Below are positions 14,982 to 36,154 of a stretch of DNA of 64,000 nucleotides, in pieces. The stretch is taken from contig PPXM03000009.1 of NCBI GenBank assembly GCA_003707065.3, forward strand, positions 124,001 to 188,000, given 5' to 3'. This DNA is from Trigonopsis variabilis. Lineage: Eukaryota > Ascomycota > Trigonopsidomycetes > Trigonopsidales > Trigonopsidaceae. The position numbers and the translations under genes were made by a program. The notes beneath the pieces were generated by a model that worked only from the letters and a program-made list of their open reading frames with translations, ran no database searches and was not told the DNA's origin. Position 1 is the first letter of the stretch. Each line of letters begins with the position of its first letter.

Positions 14982-15767
14982 CTATTTTTCGGATTTGAAA
15001 TGCACAGACAAGCCTTGTTCGCCAGGAAGAATATCTTGACGAAGAGTAAGATTAGGCATATCATAATCACCGTGATTTTGGCACCGGAAAGGAATTGGCT
15101 CATCTGTGAAGAAATTCCTTAGCCGCTGACGATAGATTTGGGATTCCTTCTCAAATCTGGCTTCGTCGGTATGATCTTGATCATAGAAAAGGATTGGAGG
15201 CAGGACCTCGAATCCGCCATAGAACAAGATCCCATGGTTGATGGGGAAAAGCAACTCCTTTTCATATCCGTTAATACCTCTTGCGCTGAATTCGCCCGGA
15301 TCGCCTCCTATAGTGATAGATAGAACGGCTCGTTTACCGGCAAAAGTGCCTTCTCCATATTTATCAGACGGATGTGTCGGAGTGTAAGGGCCAACCCCAT
15401 AACCAAACCCACTAGTGAATACCCGGTCAACCCATCCTTTAAGTATTGCGGGCATATAAAACCACCATAGAGGAAATTGTAAGATCAAGGCGTCTGCCCA
15501 AATCAGCTTATCCTGTTCTTTCTTTATGTCTGCCGGAATATGGTGGTGACGAGCCGAAACCTTCGAAGCGTGGGTCACTTTCAATCGTTCGCCTGGTGCT
15601 AGGTCCTGAAAGTCGTCACGATCAATTGTTGGCTTCCATTTCATCGCGTACAGATCAGAGACCTGGACCTCATGGCCCAGTTTCGTCAATTCGTCAATGG
15701 CCACATCTCGAAGAGACGCGTTGAGAGATTTCTCCTCCGGATGCGCAAACACAATCAAAAACTTCAT
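14982..15767 (-). CDS. NQO1-like NAD(P)H:quinone reductase, copy 1
   Basis: A single exon of 261 residues with a flavodoxin-like fold. It starts MKFLIVFAHPEEKSLNASL (FAD phosphate loop). The centre reads LQFPLWWFYMPAILKGWVDRVF (~105-125), then AGKRAVLSITIGG and the C-terminal INHGILFYGGFEVLPP and GEQGLSVHF. The C-terminal extension is of the DT-diaphorase (NQO1/NQO2) type rather than the short bacterial modulator-of-drug-activity type. The likely reaction is two-electron reduction of quinones in the cytosol, which protects against oxidative stress. It is the downstream member of a tandem pair; copy 2 is about 80% similar by eye. A Yap1-type site lies 52 bp upstream. Confidence 0.85.
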   Translation of the reverse strand: MKFLIVFAHPEEKSLNASLRDVAIDELTKLGHEVQVSDLYAMKWKPTIDRDDFQDLAPGERLKVTHASKVSARHHHIPADIKKEQDKLIWADALILQFPLWWFYMPAILKGWVDRVFTSGFGYGVGPYTPTHPSDKYGEGTFAGKRAVLSITIGGDPGEFSARGINGYEKELLFPINHGILFYGGFEVLPPILFYDQDHTDEARFEKESQIYRQRLRNFFTDEPIPFRCQNHGDYDMPNLTLRQDILPGEQGLSVHFKSEK

Positions 15768-15818
15768 GTCACGAATATCGAAGGCGCTTGCAAAGATATT
15801 TGAAGTCGATTTCCATGC

Positions 15819-16875: not shown

Positions 16876-17661
16876 CTATTTTTCGGTTTTGAAGTGCACA
16901 GACAAGCCTTGTTCGCCAGGGAGAATATCTTCACGAAGGGTAAGATCAGGCATATCATAGTCACCGCGGTTTTGGAACCGGAAAGGAATTGGCTTATCAG
17001 TGAAGAAGTCCTTGAGCCGTTGGCGATAGATTTGAGCTTCTTTCTCAAATCCGCGTTCGTCAAGGCTGTCTTGTTCATAGAAAAGAAGAGAAGGAAGGAC
17101 TTGATACCCAAAGTAAAACAAGATGCCATGACTGATTGGGAATAACAGTTCCTTTTCATAACCATTGATTCCTCTCGGGCTGAACTCACTGGCACTACAC
17201 CCTATTGTAATCGAGAGAAGGGCTCGTTTTCCAGCCAACATCCCTTCTCCATACTTATCAAAAGGATGGGTTGGAGTATAAGGGCCGACTGCATATCCAA
17301 ACCCGCTGGTGAACACCCGGTCGACCCATCCTTTAAGGATTGCAGGCATATGAAACCACCAAAGAGGAAATTGCAAGATTAAAGCATCTGCCCAGATCAG
17401 TTTCTCTTGTTCTTTTTTGATCTCCTCTGGAATGTGATTATCACGAAAGGCGGCTTCCGAAGCGGCCATTATCTTCAACCGTTCCCCTGGAACCAAATCC
17501 GGAAAGTCCTCGCGATCAATTATCGATTTCCATTTCATGGCATACAAATCAGACACCTGAACCTCGTGTCCCAACCTTCTCAGCTCGTCCACAGCCACAT
17601 CTCTCAAAGATGCATTAAGAGATCTCTCTTCCGGGTGAGCAAATACTATCAAGAATTTCAT
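16876..17661 (-). CDS. NQO1-like NAD(P)H:quinone reductase, copy 2
   Basis: A single exon of 261 residues, the same length as copy 1 and colinear with it. Motifs are MKFLIVFAHPEERSLNASL, LQFPLWWFHMPAILKGWVDR, AGKRALLSITIG and GEQGLSVHFKTEK. Differences lie in surface segments, for instance MAASEAAFRDNHIPEEIKK against THASKVSARHHHIPADIKK in copy 1. The active-site region is kept in both, so both are probably working enzymes. The pair arose by tandem duplication. A Yap1-type site lies 50 bp upstream, almost the same place as in copy 1. Confidence 0.85.
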   Translation of the reverse strand: MKFLIVFAHPEERSLNASLRDVAVDELRRLGHEVQVSDLYAMKWKSIIDREDFPDLVPGERLKIMAASEAAFRDNHIPEEIKKEQEKLIWADALILQFPLWWFHMPAILKGWVDRVFTSGFGYAVGPYTPTHPFDKYGEGMLAGKRALLSITIGCSASEFSPRGINGYEKELLFPISHGILFYFGYQVLPSLLFYEQDSLDERGFEKEAQIYRQRLKDFFTDKPIPFRFQNRGDYDMPDLTLREDILPGEQGLSVHFKTEK

Positions 17662-18278
17662 AGGAGGGAAACAAGCACGCTACGAAGCCTTTTCGAAGTT
17701 GGTTATGTCCTTAGTAAACTGCCGTGACAGTATCACACGCTTGACCCGTAAGGCCACTTTCATCGAATCTGAAGCAGCTCGTGACTGGTAGTGACGACCA
17801 ATACGCCTCTCTCTAAATCCGGGCAAGTTCTCAGCTTTAATTGGTTACCACTCCATGACCATCAAGCAAAGTGACTGGTCTTGGAACTTGTGTCCCAAAG
17901 TATATTTATCCGTAATAAGCGGGGCTAGACCTGGACCGTTTGGAGTTGTAGTGATGTCTATGGCGCAAACAGTAGAAAGAGGATCAGCCTTACGCTGAGG
18001 GGACAGAGCTAACGCCAGGGAAGAGATGGATGATCCTCTTTTAGGCAAGCAAACGTTGTCGATAAGGTCAAGCAAGCCATTCCTCTCCAAGAATCAATGT
18101 AAAATGGTGGACCACATTCAATATATGATTCTTGATCTACAGGCAAACATGCTAGAACACAGTCGTACGCTTCACTGTTTCCGAAGTATCCATTGTCTGA
18201 GACACATCGCTACTCAAACACAGCAACTGTCAAAACAAAAACACAGCCACACGTGACAGTATATATCGCAACGACGGA
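17662..18278. promoter_or_regulatory. Divergent promoter between quinone reductase copy 2 and the GH125 gene
   Basis: 617 bp. TTAGTAA at 17711-17717 lies 50 bp upstream of the quinone reductase start, a Yap1/Pap1-type site. An open frame at 17845-18090 (-) has no recognisable features. TATATATC precedes the GH125 ATG by about 20 bp. Nothing else is supported. Confidence 0.5.
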
Positions 18279-29689: not shown

Positions 29690-30260
29690 AGTTACAATCA
29701 ATTGATTTATTATTAGAGCTTCTTCCGCAAATAGCAAAGGTGTTTCCTATACATAGCATTCTGACATGGTTACAAATGTGAGAGTTGATTGAAATTTCGC
29801 TCTTCTGCTGAGATAAAATATCCACCAGGAAGAATTATCGAAGACCTGAAAGAATATTGGTAAGCTATTCCCAAATACGCGGTGGAGACCGTATACAACT
29901 TTCCAAAACAAACGTCTTAGGGTGGTTTGCGAAGAGCGTGAAGCGATCTCGCTATAAGCTAAAATAAATGGTTACGACGGAATCCCTTGTTTTTTTGTAG
30001 GATATGAAAAGGGCGAAGTGGTAGAGAAAGCATTATATCAGGTTGTGGAATTCGCCTTCGCGATTTTGAATTCCGATTTGTCTCGAAATTATCTCTTGGT
30101 AGCTCAGGTTGATATACCAAATTGCAAGCCTCTTCTCATTTTCCACATTGGACATTAACGAGGATAAAGACAGGCTTGTAAAATTATTTTTGGGCCATAA
30201 AGCATTGCTCGTTGAAAGGTTGGGTATTTATAAGGAACCGTCGATGGGTTTTCATCTTTT
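29690..30260 (+). pseudogene. Broken FunK1-like gene copy, plus strand
   Basis: Segments in several frames match the intact minus-strand gene at 31090-33360. Examples are PPGRIIEDLK, ALYQVVEFAFAILNSDLSRNY (about 30030-30090) and FSFSTLDINEDKDRLVKLF (about 30125-30185). They follow the order of the intact gene, but stops and frame changes separate them and the kinase-like part is missing. DNA identity in the AFAILNSDLSRNY region is high, so the duplication is fairly recent. It is a dead host-gene copy. Confidence 0.75.
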
Positions 30261-30465
30261 TATCTTTCAGATGCTCGATAATTTCTGCTCGTAGTTAGAT
30301 TATCTCATTGATAGAATAAGTAGAAGACCCGAAATAAATAAATTCGGACAAATCACAATCAATTGAATATCGGTGACAGGGTAACCGTTCATTGTCCTTG
30401 TTTCGGTAGTGTTTAGATTTAGAGGCTTTTGAAACTCTATTCTCGATGGTTCTTCCGCTAATGCG
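30261..30465 (-). pseudogene. Broken FunK1-like gene copy, minus strand
   Basis: The plus-strand DNA from TATCTTTCAGATGCTCGATA onward is closely similar to about 32621-32800 inside the intact gene. On the minus strand it encodes a matching piece (RYSIDCDLSEFIYFGSST). The segment abuts the plus-strand relic end to end, so parts of two copies lie tail to tail. Only this middle piece of the gene is left. Confidence 0.7.
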
Positions 30466-31089
30466 AACTCTTTTAGTGATCATGCAAGGAGAATGAAATA
30501 GACCGCTGCAAAGTCCAGTCAGCGTTACCCTGATCTGAGCAGACAAGAGCCAAAAAGGGACAGGCGTGTTTGGTCCGGCGCAAATCCGACAATACCACAG
30601 AAATGAATCTCGTTTGAGCTATTTCAAAGCAGCTAGGGCACAAACAGAAAAGAATTGAAATTACAAAAGCTCATATAGAAAATACATTGTCTATTTATCA
30701 ATAAATTAAACTAGTGGAAATGCATTTCACTTCCTGGGTGTATACCTAGCAGATACTTATTCATCCAATGAGAACGGCGAAGGTCTCTAGACTCCTAGCT
30801 CTACATGGTCAGCTTAGGGCAGTCAGAGCAGCTGCGAGCTTACATATTATGAATAAATGGGTATACGTGTCTGAAAGTAACACGCTGGTGATCAAATTTG
30901 TTATATTATAGGCAGTAGGGAAGGGAAGCAGACTTGACTCAATTCATGGACTACAATCGTTTCATTATCCCAGATGGTTGAAGAGTCCTGTGCCAGTCAT
31001 TAAGGGGCCAAACTAGTATGGCAAGTTCTCTCAGATTCAGATTCACCACCGCATACTTTGAGAATTGTACGCTACCCATAAAATTGCCT
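30466..31089. other. Gap with the first 175-bp direct repeat
   Basis: It contains repeat copy 1 (30566-30740, listed separately). The rest is 3' flank of the FunK1-like gene. No other gene was seen. Confidence 0.4.
30566..30740 (+). repeat. Direct repeat copy 1 flanking the FunK1-like gene
   Basis: About 175 bp, from GTGTTTGGTCCGGCGCAAAT to CACTTCCTGGGTG, nearly 90% identical by eye to 33858-34035 in the same orientation. The ends are not TG...CA and I see no target-site duplication, so it does not look like an LTR. It is better explained as flanking DNA carried along in a tandem duplication of the gene. Confidence 0.75.
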
Positions 31090-33360
31090 TCACTTTATAA
31101 AGTATCCATTGTCTTCAGTCCTGCTTACCTGTAGATAAGCCATCCTCAAATTTAGCAGCACTTGTTGGTAGAGATAGTGCGCACATGCATGCGCGTTCGT
31201 ACTGTACTGTTCCAAAAGAAATCTTGCCCAAGCAGCAACAAGATCCCAAAGTCCCCTGAAGCAAGGTCTGAAGTATTCATCATAAAGGAGAGATGAGTCT
31301 TGGAAACCCTGGTTTAGTTCCTCAAGGAAAACACCCTTGGAGATCGACGAAGTCAAGTTTTGAATGACCTCCTCGGTCTTGGAATCATTCACTTTGATTA
31401 ACAATCCATCTTGCAAGTCATATGCACTCATCAGCCACACTAGAACCCAAAAAAAAGATTCGAGTTCAGTCAAGACTGTAAAGTCCTTTCCGCTTCTCAC
31501 AACATGCGACATGAATATCCCTGGGGCGAAAAACCGGCCTCTCGGTCGGGTCGCCTGGTAAAATACAGAATTCTGTAAATCAAGCAAGCATCCTTTTCTT
31601 TTTTCTTGGTCATAAACGATATTGGCCAAACACACACCCCGGTGTAATATCCCTAGCTCGAATAAATCACGATGTCCTTTTTATTAGATTGAACGGTGCT
31701 ATCTCACTTACCAGTTACTGCGTCTTCTAGTGTTATTAAGATATCTTGAATACTGTGAGCTGAACTCACTAGGTCGGAGCCTTCGTATGTTAGAAAAAAG
31801 CGCTGTCTTTTCAGGACCTTAGGGATACCCCTCGCGTCTGTGTAGCCATTTCCGCCAACAGGCACAACTGAGCTCTTCACCAAAAAAGCTCCTAGGTGGT
31901 CAATCGTAACGTCTTCGTAGTCTTCCGAGTCTTGCAATCGAGGAAGATACCTTGATTGCCGGTGTTTCTTGATATATTTAAAAAGGTCTAGTTCAGTAGG
32001 GCAATCGGCATTCTTCCAGCAATCTTTGACTACAATGAAGTCACCACCACGATTGGCCAACATGAAACTGGCACTGTCGATCTCAAAAGGCCTATCAGGC
32101 ACTTTCAAAGGTGAAAGTTGACGAAAATGTTTCTCTTTCAGAGCTCTATGTAGGTCCCATTCGTTGTAAATGCCCAAACGTCTCAACGAGCAATGCTTTA
32201 TAGCCCAGAAAAGTTCTAGAAGCCTGTATTTATCCTCGTTAATGTCCAATGTGGAAAATGAGAAAAGGCCAGACCTGTCCAACATATGAGCTTGCAATTT
32301 GGTATTATTAACTTGAGCTACCAAGACATAATTCCGAGACAAATCGGAATTCAAAATCGCGAACGCGAATTCCGCAATCCGACTCAACGTTTTCTCTACA
32401 ATTTCGCTCATTTGCAAATCTAACAAAAAAACAAGGGACTCCGTCGTAGCCGTGTTATTTCGGCTTATAGCGAGATCGAATTCACGCTCTCCATAAATAG
32501 TCTTAACACGTTCGTTTTGGAAAGTTGTATACGATTCACCATATTTGGAAACAGCCTCCCAGTATCTTAGGAGGTATCCAGACACCTTTCTTTCTTCAAA
32601 GGGTTCACTCACCTTTCTATCTTTCAGATGTTCGATAATTTCTGCTGGTGGATAGATTATCTCATCGAAAGGATCAGTAGAAGGGCCGAAGTAAAGAAAT
32701 TCGGACAAATCACAATTAATTGAGTATTGGTGACCTGGCAAACGGTTCCTCATCATTGTCATTGCTTCGGTGACATTTAGGGCCTCTGAAATTCTATTCT
32801 CGATGATTCCTAGGCTATTTCGACCTCCTTCTCCCGCCAAGAGACCTATATATTGAGCAGCTAAAGCATGAGGGCTTAACAGTCGCATCAGAGCCGGAGA
32901 CCCGTAACTTTCGTGGTACATAACATCATCCGATATCTTTCCTTGTTCAAATTTTTCAATTAGAAGGGATAGGCAACTAGTTTCTGCTGGGATCATGCGT
33001 TCTCGCACTTCAGACATCAAATCAGAAATATTCAACTGCACTTGAAATATTAGTATATTAAATATAAGGGACGAGTGTTTACCGAAGTCGATAACTCTTT
33101 GCTTTTCAAAGTCGGAAGACAACGAATAACCAAGGATCAGAATGTGCCCAAGGGCTGCAGGATCGAGATCGAATCCACAAAACGCTCTGTAGGTTTCTAG
33201 TAGGTTAATGACAATCCGGATGGGTAATTGTTCAAGTATTTCGACGATGTCGCTGTATCCTGGAATCATTAACGTTTATTAAATCCTATTATGTACCTTC
33301 AAACTGAACATTGTATCTTTCCAAGAACTTCAGCAGTAGGGTCTTGTTATTGTTTGCCAT
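31090..33360 (-). CDS. FunK1-type kinase-like protein A
   Basis: Four exons: 33297-33360, 33083-33259, 31712-33040 and 31090-31676. Introns are 37, 42 and 35 nt, and the product has about 718 residues. The layout is that of fungal FunK1 proteins. DLAISRN and NSDLSRNYVLVAQV lead to DRSGLFSFSTLDI, then FIVVKDCW (beta-3 Lys at ~415), LGILHRGVCLANIVYD (~530) and GCLLDLQNS. The end is TELESFFWVLVWLMSAYDLQDG. The catalytic-loop HRD is HRG (31636-31644), so the catalytic Asp is absent; the DFG-type Asp is kept (LLDLQ). The 42-nt intron is in frame and free of stops, so its removal is likely but not forced. The C-terminal end is uncertain. The substrate is unknown. Confidence 0.7.
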
Positions 33361-34163
33361 GATGTTTTATTTGTAAATCAAAGAAGATGAGAAATGTTGG
33401 ATGTCTTTAAAATTGGAGAGCAATGGAAGCATTTATCCTCGCTATTTATGTCTAAGCTCGTATGAACTACTCAAACGAAACGTAAACAAAGAAGTTGATG
33501 AATCATTATCCAAGCTCAAGGCATTAATATGATTGGAGAACAGTTGATCTGAGCAGGAAGGTGGCATTCACGACGGTCTCTCTATCCTTTGTGCTCCCTT
33601 TATGTCCAAGACTTCTGACAACATTTGCCTTTTCTATAATAAAAATACGATCAGACACGAGATTTATCAAAAAGACGGCTGCTCCTGACTTTTTGACAAA
33701 ACGCATTATTGTTAATCACAATGACATGCTGCAAATGTCTGGTGACCGATCGCCAAAGCTTTGTATTCCAAGGGACAAAATATGTATTATTTACGAAAGA
33801 GGAATGCACAGGTCATCGTTCTCTGGGTACGCCGCCACGCCGCACGGATAGTAAGGTGTGTTTGATCTGGCGCAAAACGGACGATACCACAGAAATAAAT
33901 CTCGTTTGACCAGCTATTTCTAAGCAGGTCAGGCATAAAGGGAAAAGAATTGAAATTACAAAAGCTCATATAGCAAATACAGTGTCTATTTATTAATAAA
34001 TTAAACTAGTGGAAATGCGTTTCACTTCCTGGGCGTAAAAGTGTATTTATACATGATTCACATGAACCTAGCGGAGGTCATTTAGTAGAGTCTATATCAC
34101 ACTATAAGATTGCTAGCCTGTGGTGTTTAACCCACCTACTTAACTCAACCACACCCTGAGTCC
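33361..34163. other. Divergent promoter region between the two FunK1-like genes
   Basis: 803 bp between genes A (minus) and B (plus), including repeat copy 2. A 96-codon frame at 33561-33851 (+) has no recognisable features. Confidence 0.4.
33858..34035 (+). repeat. Direct repeat copy 2 flanking the FunK1-like gene
   Basis: About 178 bp, close to 30566-30740 over its whole length. Both share the stretch TAATAAATTAAACTAGTGGA (with one change) and end at CACTTCCTGGGYG. It lies 498 bp upstream of gene A and 128 bp before the start of gene B. Confidence 0.75.
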
Positions 34164-35939
34164 ATGGCACTTACGAGAGCAGAACCTCATCTAGCTGCTG
34201 CCACATATGGGAGCATCGTTTGGGAAGATGGATGTGGAAAGAAAGGAAGTCCCTTTGAAAAGACACCTCTGGTTGGGATAGAGACCGAGATGGCACAGGC
34301 GCTCATAAAAAATGAACTTGTTGAGCACACATACTCTATCAATTGTGATTTCTCCGAGTTCGCTAAATCGAAATCTTCCTTATGTAATTGTTGGGAGATG
34401 AGAAAATATCCATCTGCCTCAATTATCAAAAACATGAAAGAAGCTAATTGCTCGTCCTTCGATGAAAAAGATGTGGCATCGTATCTCATCAAATGTTGGA
34501 CGATTGCTTCGAAAGCCTCTAGCAGCAAGTATAGGATTGACAGCAACGTGAAGCTTCCAACTAGTCATGGTGATAGAGTGCTTGATCTAGCAATTACGAG
34601 GGCTCGCCTTGCAATCCCGGAGAATGTTGGGTTTATTTTCAAGCTAGAAACCGTTGACGTGGGTGAACGAATTGAACAAGTCATTGAGTTGGCTTTCGCG
34701 GTCCTCAACACCGACCTAGCTCGAAACTATGTATTCTTCGCTCAGGTGAACGGCCATGTATTATCCCCGTATATGCTAGACAGATCTGGTCTCTTTTGTT
34801 TTTATCCTTTCGACGTGGTAAAAGATCAAGACAAGTTGCTGGACTTTTTCTGCGTTCTTCAATATTCTCAATGGGATGGTTTGGGGAATTCTGACCAGGC
34901 ATGGTCACGATCTCAAACTCTCAGCAACAGAGAATTGCAGCTCATCACGTCATTGAAAAGCGCAGATACGGCTTTTGGCACTGGAAACGTTGCCTTCAAG
35001 ACCGCTGACGATGAAGGCAAGTTCTTTGTGCTCAGAGATTGCTGGAGGCCTATCGATCGAGGGTCAGAATTCGACATGTTGAGATGCGTCAAGTTCTCTA
35101 AATACCTTCCAAAGCTGAGAAGCAAGATACTAGATCTAGAACGGACTTCTTGCCACTTGAGGGGTTTGGGGCCTAGAGAACAAACCTCACTCCGGTACTC
35201 AGGAGTACGTGTAGTCCCAGTTGGAATGCATGGTTACCCTAGAATCTTAGAGAGAGAGCGATTTTTTTTATCATACGAAGGCGCCGAGCTGGTCACCTCT
35301 GTCGGTAGTATTCAGGACATTTTGATTGCCTTACGCGATGCTATAACAGGTAAAAATCTAACATGCTAGTGAAATCTAACAAAAGGTCATTATCAACTGA
35401 GAGAGTTGGGGATAGTACACCGGGGCGTGTGTTTGAGAAACATCGCCTACGACCCTGAACGACGGAAAGGATGTCTATTGAATCTAGAAAATGCTACTTA
35501 TTACAAAGAACAACCAAGCGGATACTTTTTCAGCCCCGAGCTATTCATGTCGTCTGCTGTGGAAAATGGAACAGATTACTCAACCTGGTCGGAGCTCGAG
35601 TCTTTCCTTTGGGTACTGGTGTGGCTGATGTATGCTTACGAGCTGCGAGACGGATCATTAAAGGAAGTAAATGACGCATTAAGCAAACAAGTTTTTGACC
35701 TCTTGGTTGTGCGTGGGTCCAAACGTTCTTTTCTCCTATCCCTACAGTCGACACCTCCACCTGAGATTGCTATGCCAGTCATGCCTTTCAGACCTTGTTT
35801 TCGGGAGCTCCAGCCTCTTGTGTCTCGTTGGGTTGACGTTCTTTTCAAAGGCTTAAACATTGCTGACCTATACTTGGAAGTGCTGTATTGCTTTGATGAC
35901 TATCTACTCCCAGAAAGCAAGAGAACCAGCCACATATGA
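34164..35939 (+). CDS. FunK1-type kinase-like protein B
   Basis: Two exons, 34164-35349 and 35386-35939, with a 36-nt intron at the same place as the last intron of gene A, give 579 residues. It shares with A the segments YSINCDFSEF, LDLAITRARL, VLNTDLARNYVFFAQVNG, DRSGLFCFYPFD and LVTSVGSIQDILIALRDAITG. It lacks the first ~180 residues of A. Kinase motifs have changed further: FFVLRDCW has Arg for the beta-3 Lys, HRG replaces HRD (35418-35426) and NLE replaces the DFG-type motif (35481). A pseudokinase or binding role is therefore likely. A further exon giving an acidic tail (DDYYLPEEDSDGDIDY, 35955-36000) is possible but unproven. Confidence 0.68.
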
Positions 35940-36154
35940 CAAATGTCTAGCAGATGACTACTATTTACCGGAGGAGGATAGTGACGGCGATATAGATTAT
36001 TGACTCTGCATGCTCAGATTAGCGCTGCCAAACCAGATGGTAAAGTAGTTAGTAATCTATATCGTCTTCAATATCACTCGGTTACATAGTCATCTGCTAG
36101 TCAATCGTCATCTATCGCTGGTTTCTTGTTTTCTGGCAGTGGTAGTCATCAAAG
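35891..36154. repeat. Large imperfect inverted repeat at the end of FunK1-like gene B
   Basis: The left arm (35891-36004) covers the last codons of gene B and its 3' flank. The right arm (36048-36154) is an inverted copy with small gaps, and the spacer is 43 nt. Matching pieces are CTTTGATGACTA, CTAGCAGATGACTA and CGATATAGATTA. The right arm is the tail of another, inverted gene copy now reduced to a fragment. Confidence 0.7.

Follow-up and report, generated by a model that had tools for sequence, protein, structure and literature searches.

Can a protein kinase gene lose its catalytic aspartate and still be kept in working order, and what would its product then do? The question is raised by two genes, A and B, at positions 31,090 to 35,939 of a 64,000-nucleotide stretch (the window) of Trigonopsis variabilis contig PPXM03000009.1. 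Both belong to the fungal kinase family FunK1 (Pfam model PF17667), and both read HRG where active kinases read HRD. A preliminary description of the window saw in them a stepwise change towards pseudokinases within one paralogous pair. We find instead that the loss is common to a set of genes scattered over the genome. The explanation we favour, with confidence about evenly balanced, is that A, B, and their relatives form a non-catalytic branch of FunK1 that has been retained and acts by binding.

Active-site residues of genes A and B

Gene models were rebuilt on sequence grounds, with GT..AG introns of 35-42 nt (Table 1), and their lengths match the open frames of 579-718 codons first described. 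The two genes stand head to head, with a gap of about 800 bp. Assignment of both to FunK1 is upheld by profile scores above the PF17667 cut-off of 24.1 bits: spliced B scores 110.3 bits, and the two stop-to-stop frames that hold the main exons of A score 41.9 and 44.1 bits. The N-terminus of A (33360-33083 of the minus strand plus the start of exon 3) is longer than in the models built for the ten remaining intact paralogues, a difference between models only, since upstream exons were not sought in those ten.

Read in the order beta-3 residue, alpha-C residue, catalytic loop, loop Asn, and DFG-type residue, A has Lys, Glu, HRG, Asn, and Asp (K419 in VVKDCW, E430, G537 in HRGVC, D556 in CLLDL), and B has Arg, Glu, HRG, Asn, and Asn (R291 in VLRDCW, E302, G409 in HRGVC, N428 in CLLNL). 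Measured against an active kinase, the beta-3 Lys is present in A and absent from B, the HRD Asp is replaced by Gly in both, and the DFG-type position holds Asp in A versus Asn in B. The rebuilt models and the alignment bear out the residue calls of the preliminary description, as well as the unequal degrees of loss that it noticed (A has lost one of the three residues, B has lost them all).

When a profile of 18 exon-2 rows was aligned with CK2, the two HRD motifs coincided and L-x-D-L of the profile fell on L-I-D-W of CK2; the Gly of A and B therefore sits in the catalytic Asp column. A conserved Asp at this position, which would have spoken against the loss, was looked for in the paralogue and CK2 alignments, and none is found at the site. 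A misaligned or shifted Asp was likewise rejected, as the CK2 alignment fixes the column and the paralogue alignment shows no displaced Asp. The Asn that follows HRD is invariant in 18 of the 18 aligned rows. Sequencing or assembly error is an unlikely source of HRG, because HRG is also read at four other FunK1 loci of the genome (numbered with the prefix L: L018, L024, L028, and L031) and HRN at two (L026 and L030), and seven genes read HR[G/N]VC.

Table 1. Features of genes A and B and of related sequence nearby, in window coordinates.
Feature	Position	Strand	Remarks
Gene A, FunK1 (PF17667)	33360-31090	minus	718 aa, 4 exons, stop-free
Gene A introns	33260-33296, 33041-33082, 31677-31711	minus	GT..AG
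Gene A PD-(D/E)XK-like region	32238..32600	minus	Asp kept (REFDLAI), E-x-K replaced by DLQ
Gene A last exon	31090..31676	minus	kinase C-lobe: HRGVCLANI, CLLDL, LESFFWVLVWL
Gene B, FunK1 (PF17667)	34164-35939	plus	579 aa, 2 exons, stop-free
Gene B intron	35350-35385	plus	GT..AG
Gene B PD-(D/E)XK-like region, residues 99-219	34458..34820	plus	Asp kept (RVLDLAI), E-x-K replaced by KLE
Gene B last exon	35386..35939	plus	kinase C-lobe: HRGVCLRNI, CLLNL, LESFLWVLVWL
Relic of gene A exon 3, broken and part-inverted	29809-30473		three segments, 78-84% identical
184-bp stretch directly upstream of gene B	33854-34037	plus	copy at 30562-30742
Copy of the 184-bp stretch	30562-30742	plus	88% identical

A loss shared across the genome

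Model PF17667 has 50 exon-level matches in the 11.35 Mb, 15-contig genome. We analysed 26 places, namely A, B, and 24 further stretches; eight weaker C-lobe matches were set aside, unchecked, as probable ordinary kinases. Eleven genes (L009, L010, L012, L013, L014, L016, L018, L021, L023, A, and B) are intact as judged by gene models with start codons picked by the analyst. Frames are interrupted in L017, L020, L024 (several times), L027, and L031, at least one disruption is present in L028, and L026 and L030 appear shortened.

Catalytic loops were readable at 24 places, L022 and L032 being the exceptions. The Asp is present in 15 and absent from nine, which read HRG (A, B, L018, L024, L028, L031), HRN (L026, L030), or HRS (L017). 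Seven genes, on six contigs, have the form HR[G/N]VC: A, B, L018, L024, L026, L028, and L030. The remaining two, L031 and L017, lack the Asp but keep the Ser that a figure legend gives as a FunK1 signature at catalytic-loop position 8 (PMC3203195, Figure 5 legend). This position is Ser in 16 of the 24 readable loops and Cys in eight, the Cys being confined to the seven HR[G/N]VC genes and L014 (Fisher p 7e-4, descriptive only, the genes being related). All seven HR[G/N]VC genes have a further Cys three positions ahead of the DFG-type residue, and every other readable loop lacks it. Asn replaces the DFG-type Asp in B, L024, L026, and L030, and also in L014; L029 has Gly. The beta-3 Lys is changed, to Arg, in B alone, with Lys at 17 of the 17 places where the motif was found and in A. 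L014 (G000:C11:124900-128500) shows another pattern of loss, in which HRD is kept beside the DFG-type Asn and the Cys for Ser, and the D and E-x-K of the nuclease-like region treated below are intact.

Trees were built from paralogues of this genome only, and in them A and B nest among other FunK1 genes. In the full-length tree (ten rows, with L013 left out and A minus its first exons), A, B, and L018 form a clade with 99/99 support, within which B groups with L018 (96/96). Forcing A and B to be sisters costs 9.3 log units (approximately unbiased test, p-AU 0.052), and the same pairing on exon-2 data gives p-AU 0.29. On the full-length test a sister pairing is disfavoured, short of firm rejection; exon-2 trees give the group poorer resolution. 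The proposal of a stepwise change within one pair is not supported, the loss of HRD being common to L018, L024, and L028 (HRG) and to L026 and L030 (HRN). In a 20-row exon-2 tree, from which the two trait columns were removed and L017, L020, L022, L024, and L025 were omitted as too short, six HRG/HRN genes group beside the broken L031 and the HRD genes L015, L016, and L021, the nearest HRD-bearing relatives of the branch. Most simply, the catalytic Asp would have been lost once, ahead of the splitting of the branch; the DFG-type Asp (in B, L024, L026, and L030) and the beta-3 Lys (in B alone) would have gone later, in an order that the trees leave unsettled.

Twelve of the 26 FunK1 places lie no more than 15 kb from a contig end, a zone making up 4% of total genome length (binomial p 9e-11, to be read with the caution that tandem copies are not independent and that contigs may end at such repeats). 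The ends of contigs C7 and C14 (L039, L042) are alike over about 100 final bases of the 150 printed, and the starts of contigs C2 and C12 (L038, L040) are near-identical across 150 bases, so contig ends have subtelomere-like sequence in common. No simple telomere repeat was seen by eye in the 15 contig ends printed.

Selective constraint on the Asp-less genes

Under model M0 on a fixed tree of A, B, L018, and L028 (524 codons), omega, the ratio of nonsynonymous to synonymous substitution rates (dN/dS), here based on paralogues of this one genome, is 0.409 (log likelihood, lnL, -6368.9 versus lnL -6432.2 at omega 1, with kappa 2.4). A ratio near 1, which the preliminary description associated with neutral decay, is not what these paralogues give. 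The unsaturated pair L018-L028 has omega 0.43 (about 0.34-0.56; likelihood-ratio test p 9e-10); values for two pairs with dS near or above 1 are 0.44 (0.39-0.50) for B-L018 and 0.27 (0.19-0.35) for A-L018. In a neutral simulation at the branch length of B, none of 1000 copies stayed open, and the mean number of stops was 14.2.

The broken relic of A exon 3 serves as an internal yardstick of decay. Over 594 aligned bp, from two of its three matching segments, it differs from A by 15.7% mismatches and 12 indel events, 11 of them frame-shifting. At that indel rate, about 40 frame-shifting indels would be expected in the coding sequence of A, and the frame of A is open. Together these sequence comparisons suggest that reading frames of the Asp-less branch have been under constraint after the Asp was lost, in at least some members. 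Because the frames are constrained, it seems most likely that the proteins work without phosphotransfer, a possibility that the preliminary description had raised and that the open frames support. The kinase fold would then be a binding or regulatory module, and the proteins perhaps pair or compete with those FunK1 proteins encoded in this genome that carry HRD, L015, L016, and L021 being the closest candidates.

A putative nuclease domain upstream of the kinase

A PD-(D/E)XK-like region precedes the kinase. Where A and B have replaced E-x-K (Table 1), L018 reads KVK, and KLK stands in the frames of L024 and L028. E-x-K is present in six of the eight intact HRD genes and in none of the three intact Asp-less genes (A, B, and L018); that both losses coincide in three of three may reflect one clade-level event. 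Because E-x-K is gone in addition to the kinase Asp, A, B, and L018 are probably doubly inactive. Complete D...E-x-K is read in L009, L014, L016, and L021; the Asp is Ser in L012 and L013 and Ala in L023, and the Lys of E-x-K is missing in L010 and L023. Among genes that are not intact, L027 combines E-x-K with a Ser in place of the Asp, L020 has ELE and L025 DLN, and both L017 (HRS) and L031 (HRG) read E-x-K.

The PD-(D/E)XK core has the order helix, three strands, helix, strand (alpha-beta-beta-beta-alpha-beta). A two-sequence structure model of B residues 99-219, of low confidence (pLDDT 56.7, pTM 0.41), runs helix, three strands, helix, short helix, strands, which is the core order with a short helix and two strands added. 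An AlphaFold model of B exon 1 alone was uninformative (pLDDT 36.5), and 15 pattern matches in viral contigs included no relative.

Alternative explanations

Several observations weigh against a retained branch with a single origin, a former nuclease, and a binding role. Support for the six HRG/HRN genes in the 20-row tree is just 65/63, and a 12-row exon-2 tree places A outside the other five plus the HRD genes L015, L016, and L021 (80/90), a position that allows two losses of the Asp; a single HRG/HRN clade is not rejected in the 12-row set (p-AU 0.31). For the upstream domain, a profile search of the PDB found no relative (four chance matches, best E 0.41); a Pfam scan of 14 exon-1 rows hit PF17667 in all 14, gave nothing but chance matches besides, and included no PD-(D/E)XK family; profiles HSDR_N and HSDR_N_2 had zero matches in the genome; and of the 741 Foldseek matches to the 121-residue model with E values of 10 or less, none reached E 0.001, the best having E 0.037 and TM 0.30. 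Several high-ranking Foldseek matches are proteins that we take to contain PD-(D/E)XK domains (R2 retrotransposon proteins, CidB, MspJI) and others are unrelated; they were not used as evidence. With no firm relative by sequence, profile, or fold search, the nuclease label is a hypothesis. The branch also dies often, as the disruption of L024 and L028 and the apparent shortening of L026 and L030 attest. Finally, mismatches between A and its relic fall 38/23/32 on the three codon positions, and because they show no third-position excess, recent constraint on the residues of A, as opposed to its frame, is not demonstrated.

The shortened genes and the codon-position counts also fit slow decay, under which these genes are members of a birth-and-death family that are turning into pseudogenes and owe their intact state only to a recent end of constraint; broken copies are indeed common (L017, L020, L024, L027, L031, and the relic). 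We consider this unlikely, if the most durable of the rivals. Omega is 0.41 rather than 1 over the whole span since the Asp loss, provided that the loss preceded the split of A, B, L018, and L028, and both the relic's rate and the neutral simulation say that A and B should carry many stops and shifts.

Alternatively, the FunK1 proteins of this genome may be Spok-type conflict proteins that join a nuclease to a kinase; losing both E-x-K and the kinase Asp would then have made toxin/antidote genes into the retained A, B, and their kin, whose products would only bind (as immunity or decoy proteins). We assign this a rather small probability, and a slightly smaller one to the version in which these are disarmed toxin/antidote genes of a branch that lost both halves and survives as immunity or decoy forms. 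In SPOK3, according to PMC6660238 and PMC9972908, a PD-(D/E)XK domain is followed by a kinase domain; changing the nuclease Lys abolishes killing and leaves resistance, and the kinase Asp is needed to resist, its loss being toxic unless wild-type SPOK3 is present. If FunK1 acts like SPOK, an Asp-less gene would survive only with a dead nuclease, and no intact gene combines E-x-K with an Asp-less kinase (L017 and L031 do, but their frames are interrupted). The nuclease-like part and the kinase have the same order, FunK1 genes crowd contig ends, and L016-L021, a young pair of HRD genes, gives omega 1.16 (about 0.71-1.92), indistinguishable from 1 (the NG86 values are 1.15 for exon 1 and 0.64 for exon 2). 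HRD genes do not in general change fast, however, since exon-2 omega is 0.36-0.63 (NG86) in six further HRD pairs. Nor do the profile, Pfam, HSDR_N/HSDR_N_2, and Foldseek searches confirm a nuclease fold, and the SPOK cysteine cluster before the kinase (C-x3-C-x13-C, second gap of 11-15 allowed) is found in none of the 11 intact proteins. HRD genes have also lost the nuclease-like Asp (L012, L013, L023) or E-x-K (L010, L023), L014 retains D and E-x-K alongside its DFG-type Asn, and a single clade-level event would by itself account for the joint loss in A, B, and L018.

Least likely of all is an unusual, still active phosphate- or nucleotide-transferring enzyme that needs no HRD Asp, of which the kinase fold offers some examples: A, L018, and L028 could bind Mg-ATP through their retained Lys, Asn, and DFG-type Asp (A and L018 also keep the alpha-C Glu), and a branch-conserved Cys takes the place of the FunK1 Ser, but Gly is unable to serve as a base, B also lacks the Lys, and the DFG-type Asp is gone from B, L024, L026, and L030.

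Other features of the window

The 184-bp stretch upstream of B exists in two copies in total, according to a search of the genome. An imperfect inverted repeat (84%; 35924-35960 and 36087-36123) lies at the end of B. Elsewhere, on the minus strand, two similar adjacent open frames (14982-15818 and 16876-17679) resemble, by eye, NAD(P)H quinone reductase-type flavoproteins.

Comparison with known systems

Classical pseudokinases with an altered HRD exist, HER3 being an example. As in HER3-type pseudokinases, the catalytic-loop Asp of A and B is replaced while the fold and the following Asn are retained; unlike them, A and B fall in another kinase group, as part of a multi-copy branch of a fungal family. 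A constrained Asp-less branch of this kind would separate the roles of the kinase fold from the roles of catalysis.

With FunK1 kinases (PF17667), A and B share the HR-x-x-x-x-x-N-I loop, the presence of many paralogues per genome, and the location of many of these near contig ends. They differ in lacking the catalytic Asp and in having Cys for the position-8 Ser, and B further lacks the Lys and the DFG-type Asp. Because that Ser is replaced, we file A and B as a derived branch within PF17667 rather than as canonical FunK1 kinases. FunK1 expansions are reported from Coprinopsis, Paracoccidioides, and Fusarium, although the FunK1 literature, in the sections available, assigns the family no function. 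Asp-less members go without mention in the available text of PMC3203195, PMC3591445, PMC6001611, and PMC5852033, among the papers searched none paired FunK1 with spore killers, and the one that has both of the words FunK1 and pseudokinase does not, in the text available, apply the second to the first.

The likeness to the SPOK spore-killer proteins of Podospora and Fusarium is one of architecture: a nuclease-like domain stands before a kinase in one protein, and copies multiply and decay. The difference is that the branch of A and B is without E-x-K and the kinase Asp, in a protein whose nuclease fold is unconfirmed. PMC12693581, pointing to a 2016 paper, calls the nuclease-kinase architecture widespread. 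If the upstream domain turns out to be a nuclease, it may become necessary to interpret the expansions of FunK1 as sets of conflict genes and not of signalling kinases.

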